DNA of 34,638 nucleotides from Burkholderiales bacterium (lineage in GTDB: Bacteria; Pseudomonadota; Gammaproteobacteria; Burkholderiales; Burkholderiaceae_C): NCBI GenBank assembly GCA_003241965.1, contig QBMB01000049.1:1-34638 (forward strand), read 5' to 3'. The position numbers and the translations under genes were made by a program. The number at the start of each line of letters is the position of its first letter. Within the stretch, counting starts at the first letter, position 1. Shown here one piece after another: positions 16,004 to 19,205 of the stretch. The notes below the pieces were generated by a model that saw only the letters and a program-made list of their open reading frames with translations, did not search any database and was not told the DNA's origin.

Positions 16004-17251
16004 ATGTCCCTCGACACCATCATCACGCACAACATGCTGGCGCACACCTCGCACGAGGTGGCGCCCGACGCCTGCGCGCTGGTGTTGATGGGCGGTGGCG
16101 CGCGCACGGCTTACCAGGCTGGCGTGCTCAAGGCGCTGGCCGCCATGCAGCCCGCCGGGGCGCAGGCGTTTCCGTTTCAGTGGTTGTTCGGCACCTCGGC
16201 CGGCGCGCTCAACGCGGCCTACCTCGGCAGCATCGCCCAACAAGGTCTTGCGGCACTGCCGGAACTGGCGAAGTTCTGGATGGCTCTGCGCTCGGAGCGG
16301 GTGTACCGGCTGGAGGCACCGGGTTGGGTTCGCGCCAACCGGCTGGTGGCCGGCTGGACGTTGGCTCGACAGGTAAGGCGCCACCACGCACTGCTCGACA
16401 CGCTGCCGCTGGTGGACACCCTGCACCGGGCGATCGACCTGCAAGGGCTCGAGCGCGCGCTCGATCAACGCGCCATCCATGCACTGGGCGTGACCGCTTC
16501 CAGCTACACCAGCGGCGAACACTGGACCTTCTGCCAGACGCGCGCCGCGCACCCGGTGCAGCCTTGGCACCGGCCCGGGCGCCGGTCGGATTTCCAGCCC
16601 ATCACAATCGAGCACCTCATGGCCTCCAGCGCCATTCCCTTCCTGTTTCCCGCAGTGCCACTGTGGGTCGAAGGACACAAGGAATACTTTGGTGACGGCT
16701 CCATGCGCCAGCTATCGCCGCTGTCACCGGCCATCCATTTCGGCGCGCGCCGCGTGCTGGTGATCGGCGTGGGCCAGCCCCAGCGCTCGGGCATGGCGGT
16801 GCGCGCGGCGGGCGACCCCACGGCCGGCACCATCGCCGGCCACGCCATGGCCAGCGTGTTCCATGACACCTTGCAGGCCGATGTGGAACAGGCCCAGCGC
16901 GTGAGCCAGACTCTGTCGCGCCTGCCGCCAGCGCTGGCCGCGGCTCTGCCCTACCGGCCGGTCGATGTGCTGGCCATCCAGCCGAGCTTTTCGCTGGACG
17001 AACTGGCGCGCAAGCACATCGGCGAATTGCCCGCACCCACACGCAACACCCTGGCAGGGCTGGGCGCACTGGACACCGCACGCGGCGCGGCCGGCAGTGC
17101 TGCGTCCTTGGCCAGCTACCTGTTGTTTGAACCGGGTTTTGTGCATGCCCTCATCGAGCTCGGCGAGCACGACGCCTGGCGCCGAAAGGACGAGCTGGTC
17201 CGCTTCATGGCGCCCCATGCGCCGCCTGCGGAATCAATGGCGGTGCCATAA
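16004..17251 (+). CDS. Patatin-like phospholipase family protein
   Basis: Serine lipid acyl hydrolase of 415 residues. The oxyanion-hole loop GGGARTAYQAG is at about residues 30-40, the nucleophile elbow GTSAG has Ser65, and the Asp of the Ser-Asp dyad is in DGSMRQ (Asp about 231). The GSMRQLSPLSPAIHFGA context is typical of proteobacterial patatins. There is no signal peptide, so a cytoplasmic or peripheral membrane location is likely. The C-terminal 130 residues form an alpha-helical extension seen in this subgroup. The ATG at 16004 has only a weak GAAG upstream. Substrate is unknown. Confidence 0.87.
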   Translation: MSLDTIITHNMLAHTSHEVAPDACALVLMGGGARTAYQAGVLKALAAMQPAGAQAFPFQWLFGTSAGALNAAYLGSIAQQGLAALPELAKFWMALRSERVYRLEAPGWVRANRLVAGWTLARQVRRHHALLDTLPLVDTLHRAIDLQGLERALDQRAIHALGVTASSYTSGEHWTFCQTRAAHPVQPWHRPGRRSDFQPITIEHLMASSAIPFLFPAVPLWVEGHKEYFGDGSMRQLSPLSPAIHFGARRVLVIGVGQPQRSGMAVRAAGDPTAGTIAGHAMASVFHDTLQADVEQAQRVSQTLSRLPPALAAALPYRPVDVLAIQPSFSLDELARKHIGELPAPTRNTLAGLGALDTARGAAGSAASLASYLLFEPGFVHALIELGEHDAWRRKDELVRFMAPHAPPAESMAVP

Positions 17252-17252
17252 T
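17247..17252 (+). promoter_or_regulatory. Possible -10 box for the corA leader transcript
   Basis: CATAAT, five of six consensus matches, overlaps the stop codon of the patatin gene. It would start transcription near 17259, about 23 nt before the leader ORF. The matching -35 region is weak. Confidence 0.3.
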
Positions 17253-17281
17253 TCGCCGATCGATCCACCCCGGAGTACCCC

Positions 17282-17335
17282 ATGGACAGCACGCCCCCCA
17301 GTTGCGTGCTTTCAGCCGCCCCCGTCACCGTCTGA
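17282..17335 (+). CDS. Candidate 17-codon leader ORF upstream of corA
   Basis: A short ORF encoding MDSTPPSCVLSAAPVTV. GGAG at 17272-17275 lies six bases before its ATG, as good a site as that of corA itself. The peptide starts with an acidic residue followed by a Pro pair and has a third Pro near the end. Codons 9-12 coincide exactly with one arm of a 12-bp inverted repeat whose other arm is downstream of its stop, so a translating ribosome would disrupt that stem. In enterobacteria, Pro-containing leader ORFs control the Mg2+ transporter genes mgtA and corA (mgtL, corL). That this ORF is translated, or works the same way, is inference. Confidence 0.5.
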   Translation: MDSTPPSCVLSAAPVTV

Positions 17336-17431
17336 TCACTGCGCCCGGCTCGGTGATATGGATCGCACGGTCCGCTGGCTGAAAGCACCCACCCCGCCTT
17401 GGGGCCCGCATGCGCGGCCCCGTCCTTTCAG
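17306..17431 (+). promoter_or_regulatory. corA: Structured corA 5' leader with mutually exclusive stems
   Basis: Arm A GTGCTTTCAGCC (17306-17317) is perfectly complementary to arm B GGCTGAAAGCAC (17377-17388). Inside that loop a second stem pairs 17335-17341 with 17351-17357 (seven pairs, one G-U) around a 9-nt loop. After B comes a stem GGGGCC/GGCCCC (17401-17406 with 17416-17421). Segment C CTTTCAG (17425-17431) can pair with seven bases of B instead of A. A ribosome on the leader ORF would cover A and free B to pair with C. No strong intrinsic terminator is present, so control could be Rho-dependent or translational. Confidence 0.5.
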
Positions 17432-17457
17432 ACAGCAGATTTCGCCGGGAGCGCCCC

Positions 17458-18444
17458 ATGCTCAACGTATTCACCCTGGCCAATGGCCGCCTCTTCCAGG
17501 AAGAGATCGAGTCGCTCGAAGAGCTGGCTCAATTCAAGCCGATCTGGGTCGACCTGGAAGACCCCACCCCCGAAGAACGCCGCTGGGTCAAACAGCACTT
17601 TGGCCTGTCGATCCCCGAAGACGCGATGGACGAGGACATCGAGGAGTCGGCCCGCTTCTTTGAAGAAGACAACGGCGAGCTGCATGTGCGCTCCGACTTT
17701 TTGATCGACGACGAGGAAGACCCGCGCGCGGTGCGGGTGGCCTTCATCCTGAACGAGCACAACGACACCTTGAAGAGCCAGGGTGTGCTGTTCTCCATCC
17801 ACGACGAGGACGTGCCGGTGTTCCGCCTGCTGCGCATGCGCGCGCGGCGCATGCCCGGCCTGATCGAGGACGCCAAGGACGTGCTGCTGATGCTCTTCGA
17901 CGCGGACGCCGAGTACTGCGCCGACACGCTGGAAGACATTTACGACGAGATCGAGACGGTGAGCAAGAAGGTGCTCAACAGCAACGCCTCGGACAACCTG
18001 CTGAGCGAGGCGCTCTCGGCCATTGCGCGGCACGAGGACATGTCGGGTCGCATCCGCCGCAACGTGATGGACACGCGCCGCGCGGTCAGCTTCATGATGC
18101 GCAGCCGCCTGCTGAGTGCCGAGCAGTTCGAAGACGCGCGCCAGATCCTGCGCGACCTGGATTCGCTGGACAGTCACACCGCCTTCCTGTTCGACAAGAT
18201 CAACTTTTTGATGGATGCCACCGTCGGTTTCATCAACATCAACCAGAACAAGATCATCAAGATCTTCTCGGTGGCCAGCGTATCGCTGCTGCCGCCCACG
18301 CTGGTGGCCAGCAGCTACGGCATGAACTTCGCGTTCATGCCCGAGCTGCAATGGCACTACGGCTACCCGCTGGCGCTCGCGCTGATGGTGCTCTCGGCCG
18401 TGGTGCCCATGCTCTATTTCCGCAAACGGGGTTGGTTGCGGTAG
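17458..18444 (+). CDS. corA: Magnesium/cobalt transporter CorA family protein
   Basis: Pentameric inner-membrane channel for Mg2+ (also Co2+/Ni2+), 328 residues. The N-terminal cytoplasmic part is strongly acidic (several runs of Glu and Asp near 70-110), as in CorA sensor domains; a long helical stalk follows. Two membrane segments close the protein, with the selectivity motif YGMNF (Gly-Met-Asn about 288-290) between them and the basic tail RKRGWLR. The ATG at 17458 has GGGAG six bases upstream. The gene is preceded by a leader of about 200 nt with a short ORF and stable stems, and ends five bases before the convergent mtnN stop. Confidence 0.95.
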   Translation: MLNVFTLANGRLFQEEIESLEELAQFKPIWVDLEDPTPEERRWVKQHFGLSIPEDAMDEDIEESARFFEEDNGELHVRSDFLIDDEEDPRAVRVAFILNEHNDTLKSQGVLFSIHDEDVPVFRLLRMRARRMPGLIEDAKDVLLMLFDADAEYCADTLEDIYDEIETVSKKVLNSNASDNLLSEALSAIARHEDMSGRIRRNVMDTRRAVSFMMRSRLLSAEQFEDARQILRDLDSLDSHTAFLFDKINFLMDATVGFININQNKIIKIFSVASVSLLPPTLVASSYGMNFAFMPELQWHYGYPLALALMVLSAVVPMLYFRKRGWLR

Positions 18445-18449
18445 CCCGC

Positions 18450-19205
18450 TCAGGGCTGCATCAAAAGCTCGTCGATGATGGCCGCGCTGTAGCGGCTGGC
18501 CACCTCGCGCAGGAAGCGCGCAAAGTCCACGTGCGCTGCGTCGTCAGCCCGGTCGGAGATGGTGCGCACCACCGCGAGCGGCACGCGGTAGTCGTGGCAC
18601 ACCTGGGCGAAGGCCGCACCTTCCATTTCCACCGCCAGTGCTTGCGGCAGCTCACGGCGAAGCGCTTCGCTTTCGGCCGTCGTCGAGACGAACCGGTCGC
18701 CACTGATCAGCAAGCCTTGGTGGCAAGCGGGGGTGTGCAGGCCGAAGGCACTGCGCACTGCGTCGGGCAGTTGCGCAGGCAGCTCGCTCAACACCTGCCC
18801 GGCCGCCCGCACCAACCGAGCGGTCAAGGCAGCGTCGGCATCGAAAGTGGCGCGGCCATAACCGGGCACCTCATGGCGAGGGAAGATCGGCGAGGCGTCC
18901 ATGTCGTGCTGCAGAAACTGCCGTGCCACCACCACGTCGCCCACTTTGACGCCCTCACCGAGGCCACCGGCCACGCCGGTGAACACAATGCGCTGCACAT
19001 GGAAGCGCTCGATCAGTACGGTAGCGGTGGTGGCTGCGGCCACCTTGCCGATGCCTGAGAGCACGGCCACGACGTCGCAACCGTGCAGGTGTCCGCGCCA
19101 GAAGGTGCGACCACCGACGGATTGTTGGTGTTCATCGGGCATGAGGTGGAGGACGGCTTGCAGTTCCTCATGCAGCGCACTGACGATGGCGGTGGGGCCT
19201 TCCAC
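18450..19205 (-). CDS. mtnN: 5'-methylthioadenosine/S-adenosylhomocysteine nucleosidase
   Basis: Hydrolyses methylthioadenosine and S-adenosylhomocysteine to adenine plus the thioribose or ribosylhomocysteine, clearing by-products of SAM use. The 251-residue protein has the PNP_UDP_1 fold marks: Glu13/14 in ALHEEL, SGIGKVAAA, TGVAGGL, the substrate-binding VEMEGAA and the catalytic Asp in RTISDRAD. It starts at GTG (19205-19203), and the first base of that codon is the last base of the fadD stop (TAGTG), so translation is likely coupled to fadD. It is about 20 residues longer than the E. coli enzyme, mostly in the middle. Confidence 0.92.
   Translation of the reverse strand: MEGPTAIVSALHEELQAVLHLMPDEHQQSVGGRTFWRGHLHGCDVVAVLSGIGKVAAATTATVLIERFHVQRIVFTGVAGGLGEGVKVGDVVVARQFLQHDMDASPIFPRHEVPGYGRATFDADAALTARLVRAAGQVLSELPAQLPDAVRSAFGLHTPACHQGLLISGDRFVSTTAESEALRRELPQALAVEMEGAAFAQVCHDYRVPLAVVRTISDRADDAAHVDFARFLREVASRYSAAIIDELLMQP

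Follow-up and report, generated by a model that had tools for sequence, protein, structure and literature searches.

What does the leader of about 200 nucleotides (nt) ahead of the magnesium transporter gene corA do in a Burkholderiales genome, with its short upstream open reading frame (uORF) and its competing RNA stems? The locus lies on contig QBMB01000049.1 (assembly GCA_003241965.1), of which a stretch of 34,638 nt was analysed and is referred to here as the window. The initial annotation, which was made from this sequence alone, described a possible Mg2+- or translation-sensing attenuator, and all of the parts that it listed (a 17-codon reading frame, a GGAG, a 12-base-pair repeat, a 42-nt spacing, an inner stem, a third hairpin and a competing segment) are present in the sequence. 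Compared across its relatives, the leader is real, far beyond chance, and covariation supports its topology; the signal and the sign are inferred. We give even odds to the reading that translation of the uORF gates an RNA switch with two states, by which access to the ribosome-binding site (RBS) of corA is controlled.

One segment and its rival partners

The elements on which this reading is based are the following.

17272 to 17275, forward strand: GGAG, the Shine-Dalgarno (SD) sequence of the uORF, with a spacing of 6 nt to the ATG
17282 to 17335, forward strand: the uORF of 17 codons, MDSTPPSCVLSAAPVTV and a stop (ATG at 17282, TGA at 17333-17335)
17285 to 17294, forward strand: segment 1, the 5' arm of H1, uORF codons 2-5, with one C-U mismatch in the window
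17304 to 17313, forward strand: the 3' arm of H1, which overlaps segment 2 (basis: co-adaptation and class H covariation)
17306 to 17317, forward strand: segment 2, the 5' arm of H2, GTGCTTTCAGCC, uORF codons 9-12 (basis: sequence and covariation)
17317 to 17324, forward strand: the weak arm of H4, CGCCCCCG, complementary with one mismatch to the corA SD region at 17446-17453
17377 to 17388, forward strand: segment 3, the 3' arm of H2, GGCTGAAAGCAC, which begins 42 nt past the uORF stop
17447 to 17451, forward strand: GGGAG, the corA SD (basis: sequence), the target of H4 in relatives
17458 to 18444, forward strand: corA, a magnesium/cobalt transporter of 328 amino acids (a score of 241.4 bits with NCBIfam TIGR00383, whose cutoff is 200.75)

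The comparison of arms supports the view that segment 2 has three rival partners, i.e., uORF codons 2-5 (H1), segment 3 (H2) and, in class S, the corA RBS (H4); because all of these stems use segment 2, H2 excludes both H1 and H4. The 127 leaders were sorted into classes according to the codon, read in frame, with which segment 2 begins. In class S (58/127) this codon is the stop TAG, and the uORF, e.g., METYPSW, is seven codons long with its stop directly at segment 2. Class H (GTG; 43/127) is Hydrogenophaga-like and is the class of the window, class V (CAG; 22/127) is Variovorax-like, and four leaders fell elsewhere; in the classes other than S the uORF has 13-20 codons. Pairing was counted in three alignments, A2 with 65 of 99 leaders, A3 with 30 of the 41 class S representatives (the shorter ones) and A4 with all 32 class H representatives, and co-adaptation was tested on 87 non-redundant leaders of the 127.

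In the window, all 12 base pairs of H2 are Watson-Crick. Over the 65 leaders, 87.1% of its cells are paired compared to 31-47% when the arms are slid, and double-sided changes were found at seven of the 12 pairs (80 cells); within single classes the paired share reaches 94.4% (S) and 96.4% (H). H4 joins the 3' half of segment 2 to the region of the corA SD. The paired share of its cells in class S is 72.6% (36-51% when slid), and neither its 49 double-changed cells (23.7 in shuffles) nor its covariation score of 0.407 (0.201 in shuffles) was reached in 500 shuffles. At the flanking pair 38/124, which lies outside the GGGAG, G-C, A-U, U-A and C-G were all found in this class, and the complementarity to the RBS has its maximum 8-12 nt past the uORF stop (z -7.6 and -8.1). 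H2 and H4 both need segment 2, and each is supported by covariation in class S; they exclude one another, and H4 is the stem that sequesters the RBS. The pairing of the first H2 arm with codons 2-5 of the reading frame (H1), which the initial annotation had not listed, was also found to be co-adapted across relatives. Its seven outer pairs are 80.9% paired over the 65 leaders, compared to 25-52% for slid arms, and a single pair shows double changes (18 cells; equalled in 38 of 500 shuffles); in class H it is 93.8% paired, and nine cells were changed on both sides, at one pair, which no shuffle equalled.

When own and swapped partners were compared over the 87 leaders for 798 anchored window pairs, H2, H1, the inner stem, H3 and H4 all came within the first 13. 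When partners were swapped within classes, the result was 0/60 for H1, H2 and H3 in classes H and S and for H4 in class S. Among eight control pairs, the sequence ahead of segment 3 with the RBS gave a small overall effect (-0.5 kcal/mol, 0/60) and segment 1 with the RBS gave 5/60.

Other structures of the leader complete this picture.

17335 to 17357, forward strand: the inner hairpin in the H2 loop (basis: folding; its window pair (2,+18)-(3,-22) is co-adapted in 70 leaders)
17389 to 17412, forward strand: a C-rich, rut-like stretch, the H3 partner of the sequence just 5' of segment 3
17401 to 17421, forward strand: the GC hairpin of the initial annotation, not terminator-like
17330 to 17335, forward strand: GUCUGA at the uORF stop, the first arm of a candidate H5
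17428 to 17433, forward strand: UCAGAC, the partner of the uORF stop region, part of CTTTCAG

The H3 duplex has an energy of -15.7 kcal/mol in the window. Candidate H5 may replace H4 in the window's class; its co-adaptation in class H is weak (z about -2.4). The CTTTCAG at 17425-17431 is complementary to the CTGAAAG in the second arm of H2, and the initial annotation had regarded it as the competitor for this arm. It was seen by eye in some Hydrogenophaga leaders only, and in class S the supported competitor is the corA RBS; a general importance of CTTTCAG is not supported. In two leaders, L053 (labelled Rhodoferax) and L054, the arms that hide the corA start contain, by eye, a GGGGTCAGATNCCAATT-like sequence, which looks like a dispersed repeat that was recruited into the switch.

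The conserved uORF

Across the type I leaders, as we call those of the window's kind, the uORF has 7 to 20 codons. A start codon is present in 126 of 126 distinct leaders in which it was placed by the covariance model (ATG 65, GTG 29, TTG 32), and codon 2 is acidic in 122 of them; these counts are less biased than those from the leader finders, even though 65 of the sequences built the model, and the start codon is also present in the 33 loci found by the model alone (L112-L141, L149, L151 and L153). Proline stands at codon 5 in 87/87 short-form leaders and at codon 6 in 39/39 with the extra Hydrogenophaga codon, and the start-codon and proline counts from the finders are partly by construction, as the finders required them. 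The codon-5 proline is spelled CCT (16), CCC (38) or CCG (34), and the serine at codon 6 AGT (64) or TCT (17). An SD-like motif (GGAG, AGGA or GAGG) precedes 68 of 87 uORFs compared to 49 of 770 background windows. In the model-placed set (an earlier computation used 87 leaders), the synonymous share of differing codon pairs is 0.34 in the uORF frame of the short form versus 0.24 and 0.04 in the other frames, and 0.58 versus 0.12 and 0.12 in the Hydrogenophaga form. The initial annotation had proposed looking in relatives for a conserved mini-ORF and compensatory changes in the stem, and both were found, as the uORF start codons and as the H2 covariation.

In four leaders (L024, L051, L052 and L077), GGAG and CUCC surround a 4-nt loop directly 5' of the uORF start. 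In several leaders of class S, the SD of the uORF itself may be masked by this mini-hairpin.

Distribution of the leader

The covariance model R1 was built from 65 leaders, and the loci were taken from named genomes (the best 80 of 593 relatives) and from 60 genomes of the genus, from which 30 loci were fetched. A sense match to R1 was found upstream of corA in 105 of the 110 loci fetched by CorA similarity (75/80 named and 30/30 genus loci; those without were L013, L019, L042, L069 and L073). In total, 139 loci match R1, 34 of which were fetched with R1 itself. Among the 143 loci, five had no leader; a false leader in L013 was removed, and L064, in which segment 3 was misaligned, was left out. 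R1 matches 175 of 399 genomes of the window's family and 69 of its 141 genera, with one match per genome, and corA adjoins 30/30 and 5/5 further matches; some of the family and genus names were derived from named CorA relatives. In a sample of the order, 11 of 300 genomes match at E 0.01, seven from the same family and four from other families. The latter were not accepted as leaders; they are weak (E 2.7e-4 to 6.8e-3) with no corA on the fetched stretch. In a sample of the class, 3 of 229 genomes match, all from the window's family, and no such leader was seen by eye in 26 loci ahead of corA-like genes from other families of the order. This fits the proposal of the initial annotation that the leader is analogous to the known ones, was built independently and couples leader translation to corA.

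In the window's own genome, the model search found a single copy; the next match is the antisense of the same place (E 0.27), and the remaining ones have an E of 0.42 or worse. The uORF start of L049 is kept while its segment 2 is hardly recognisable, with a weak R1 match (E 1e-4), and by eye it looks decayed; L069 is decayed-looking without an R1 match, and L189 holds, by eye, a type I remnant. These three are possible cases of lost control.

A second leader type with the same peptide plan

Of the first 20 listed genomes of the family without an R1 match, 19 have corA; judged by eye, a different leader precedes it in 12 and a type I relict in one, and six show no leader. This type II leader was found ahead of corA in loci L192-L203 and L204-L233, from genomes of the family without type I. 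Its uORF has six or seven codons and reads MDSDHPR and a stop in 22 of 32 parsed leaders (L225 and L226 were unparsed); others are MDSTPSR, MDKPPSR, MDPSHPW, MQPDPR and similar, each likewise with its stop. The finder required a proline plus D, E, N or Q at codon 2, so that the codon-2 count is partly by construction. The model R2, built from 10 sequences, matches 99 of the 399 genomes and 39 of the 141 genera; the two types never occur together, and 274 of the 399 genomes have one of them. All 30 fetched type II leaders adjoin corA. R2 matched 0 of 200 genomes of the order, in a draw without a positive control that therefore shows little.

The type II arms, CCGUCCACUCC and GGAGUGAGACGG, are unlike those of type I, and the uORF layout is the same. 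As in type I, the complementarity to the RBS has its maximum 8-12 nt past the uORF stop (z -4.5 and -3.6; 24 leaders), and it is co-adapted. The ON and OFF folds differ by a median of -4.9 kcal/mol over the 29 of 32 leaders in which segment 3 is recognisable. MDSTPSR, which occurs with type II arms, appears to link the peptide of one type to that of the other. Seven codons is the uORF length in 58 of 127 leaders of type I and in the majority of the 32 that were parsed for type II. It is possible, at somewhat less than even chances, that this heptapeptide is the conserved sensor of a ribosome-gated, Mg2+-sensing switch that arose in the window's family independently of those of the enterobacteria, in which the arms were wholly replaced between the types and the distance from the stop to the anti-RBS strand was kept. 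As a common peptide plan is combined with RNA arms that differ between the types, they offer a natural experiment in which the contributions of nascent peptide and RNA could be told apart.

Proposed mechanism

In the proposed OFF state, H1 and H4, helped by H3, would hide the corA RBS, and in the ON state H2 would leave it free. A ribosome that pauses while its P site is at one of the uORF codons 1-3 (1-4 for the class of the window), or that loads and drops off early, would keep H1 open and segment 2 free, so that H2 could form and the RBS would be released. A ribosome that runs on would cover segment 2; meanwhile, segment 3 could be held in H3, and after the ribosome leaves, H1 and H4 would close. 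The likely signal would be low Mg2+, which destabilises ribosomes on acidic and proline-containing starts, since corA is the gene of an Mg2+ importer and the peptide starts in this manner; corA would then go up when Mg2+ is short. Mg2+ sensing by the leader is plausible, and the leader may in this way tune the uptake of magnesium. In the window's class, the uORF appears to have been lengthened and the anti-RBS pairing to have been weakened or shifted downstream.

Folds with forced H2 and with masked segment 3 are close in energy, with medians of -0.2 (S), -0.9 (V) and -2.0 (H) kcal/mol and a wide spread. When a model ribosome was placed with codons 1-3 in the P site, the probability of H2 rose from 0.41 to 0.80-0.82 in class H, from 0.44 to 0.65-0.72 in class S and from 0.34 to 0.44-0.47 in class V; with codon 4 in the P site it was raised in class H only.

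Weighing the alternatives

A number of results weigh against this mechanism. The same ribosome model lets the probability of H2 drop to 0.12 (S) and 0.01 (V) at codon 4 and to zero in both classes (0.23 in H) at codon 5, so that a stall at the conserved proline, which covers segment 2, would not favour H2. With the ribosome on codons 1-3, the predicted accessibility of the corA SD changes little, from 0.16 to 0.17-0.18 (H), from 0.18 to 0.21-0.22 (S) and from 0.13 to 0.16 (V), and it is highest with codon 7 in the P site in classes S (0.25) and V (0.24), which suits the opposite sign. The window itself favours H2 by 7.2 kcal/mol, and its H4 is weak, with one mismatch in eight pairs and a duplex energy of -12.1 kcal/mol. 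H4 was not significant in the swap test in classes H (16/60) and V (17/60), and class V (n=10) supports none of the four helices, with 60/60 for H1. In class S, H1 is 83.7% paired without covariation. Neither the seven of ten H4 pairs with double changes (mean of 7.2 in shuffles) nor the 16 further pair types of H2 (16.3) exceed the shuffles. With regard to the peptide, acidic codon 2 is missing in 4 of 126 type I uORFs, aspartate stands at codon 4 in only 6 of 88 short ones, and one type II uORF, MDSDHSR with its stop (L201/L210, one genome), has no proline; it was left uncounted because the finder demanded one. Without the proline codons, the synonymous share of the short form falls to 0.19 versus 0.27 (frame +1) and 0.05, and that of the Hydrogenophaga form is 0.48 versus 0.16 and 0.15; the coding-frame signal thus rests on the proline codon in the short form and not in the Hydrogenophaga form.

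Because of the ribosome-model results, we lowered our confidence in the low-Mg2+ switch from slightly better than even to even, and raised that in a switch of the opposite sign from unlikely to a shade less unlikely. In the latter, translation of the uORF would open the corA RBS by coupling and would report general translation activity or the supply of particular transfer RNAs rather than low Mg2+. In class S and type II, the strand that pairs with the RBS is located 8-22 nt past the uORF stop and would be covered in part by a ribosome that terminates there; when this strand is masked, the predicted SD accessibility rises from 0.07 to 0.25 (V), from 0.19 to 0.27 (S) and from 0.16 to 0.20 (H), and a P site at codon 7 gives a similar gain in S and V. 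Against this, acidic codon 2 and the early proline are kept, the former also through a GAA/GAC exchange by which a pair of H1 is lost, and the precedents on Mg2+ transporter genes show the inverse sign. The output could also be Rho-dependent termination, with the uORF and the stems deciding on the exposure of a C-rich rut site that follows segment 3. In the stretch from segment 3 to the corA SD, the share of C is 0.46-0.54 and that of G 0.14-0.21, with a C/G ratio of 2.4-3.9 in the three classes, which leaves room for such an output, and the account of E. coli corA describes regulation by Rho and a corL translation that opposes corA expression (PMC11552253). Yet, in class S it is the RBS of corA that covaries with segment 2, and the CUCCC/GGGAG and H3 pairings would also lead one to expect a high share of C; we regard this output as unlikely in place of RBS control, while the two may coexist. 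As for the attenuator of the initial annotation, there are no terminator-like sites in 17200-17500, where the hairpin and T tract of a classical intrinsic terminator are absent. Since the covarying target is the corA RBS, translation control is the first reading and Rho is possible. The interpretation in that annotation was therefore partly upheld, in the conservation and the independent build of the leader and not in the word attenuator or the competitor at 17425-17431.

A metal-binding riboswitch in which the uORF is incidental would recall the gammaproteobacterial corA leaders that were proposed as riboswitch candidates (PMC6429828). We consider it very improbable: the conserved parts are the uORF and the competing arms, the two types combine different arm sequences with the same uORF plan, and no Rfam element was matched above its gathering score in the window and six relatives. 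A small nucleolar RNA hit of 16.4 bits, against a gathering score of 35, was at chance level and was rejected. For the published gammaproteobacterial corA motif, with its three-way junction, this negative applies only if Rfam includes that motif; R1 itself matched only members of the window's family among the 229 class genomes. By its fold energy, the window leader does not stand out (z -0.61; 49 of 200 shuffles are at least as stable), which would suit a chance reading frame and repeat without function; the covariation and the other comparative results contradict such an origin, to which we give practically no credence. As its fold energy is ordinary, the significance of the leader is comparative. 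For the preferred reading, a low-Mg2+ switch acting on the corA RBS, the covariation of H2 and H4 pinpoints the bases to test.

Promoter and neighbouring genes

The nearest named CorA relatives of the window belong to Hydrogenophaga, the best with 98% identity. The leader is preceded by a promoter element.

17244 to 17252, forward strand: an extended -10 promoter element, TGC-CATAAT, which overlaps the stop codon of the upstream gene

The box NRTAAT was found in 84 of 87 non-redundant leaders, with TGn ahead in 79, compared to 5% of shuffled stretches; a strict sigma-70 scan found no promoter in the window leader. The stop that the element overlaps is the TAA at 17249-17251 of the upstream reading frame (16004-17251). 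This neighbour has only weak lipase matches, below the cutoff, and by motif we take it to be patatin-like in appearance. Downstream, at 18450-19205 on the other strand, lies a methylthioadenosine/adenosylhomocysteine nucleosidase gene.

Comparison with known Mg2+ leaders

Where leader translation was found described as a means of controlling corA, the bacteria concerned are enterobacteria, and the published corA motif is gammaproteobacterial only (PMC6429828). No mention of a corA leader in the window's family was found in the open-access literature, including two motif surveys by word search: PMC11109978 has no corA and one passage on an mgtE motif, and PMC8632094 gave no matches.

The corL-corA leader of E. 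coli and Salmonella, taken together with the gammaproteobacterial corA motif (PMC11552253, PMC6429828), resembles the present one in having, in E. coli and Salmonella, a uORF and two mutually exclusive folds upstream of corA. It differs in that its uORF lies in a three-way junction and that it acts through termination by Rho, in contrast to the three-partner segment and the covarying RBS found here. The proposed sign would agree with that described for E. coli corL/corA (PMC11552253).

The leader peptide MgtL of mgtA shares the acidic and proline-containing start (PMC11282234, PMC11552253). Its Glu2 and Asp4 correspond to D2 and D4 of MDSDHPR (22/32 type II) and to E2 and D4 of a few type I peptides (EPDP, ETDP and EIDP), whereas the other type I uORFs, including that of the window, have no acidic codon 4. 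With one acidic residue and Pro-Pro, the window peptide has a weaker likeness to an MgtL-type destabilising sequence than MDSDHPR. In a toeprint with an EttA mutant, the ribosome held on MgtL had codon 3 in the P site, as reported in PMC11282234. Moreover, unlike the RBS control proposed here, the Salmonella MgtL leader acts on transcription through Rho in these accounts.

The mgtQ leader of Salmonella mgtB (PMC8092293) has a very short uORF with an acidic codon 2 (eight codons), alternative stems, one set of which occludes the downstream RBS and the other frees it, and an Mg2+ importer downstream; the ON/OFF logic proposed here would be that shown for mgtQ. The gene, the bacterial group and the sequence are different, mgtQ sits between operon genes, segment 2 of the present leader itself carries the anti-RBS strand, and experiments exist for mgtQ only. 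A separate, family-wide solution with the same logic, if true, would suggest that ribosome-based Mg2+ sensing is a recurrent design. Seen so far only in the window's family, the leader would thus share the purpose and the logic of the enterobacterial Mg2+ leaders and differ from them in construction.

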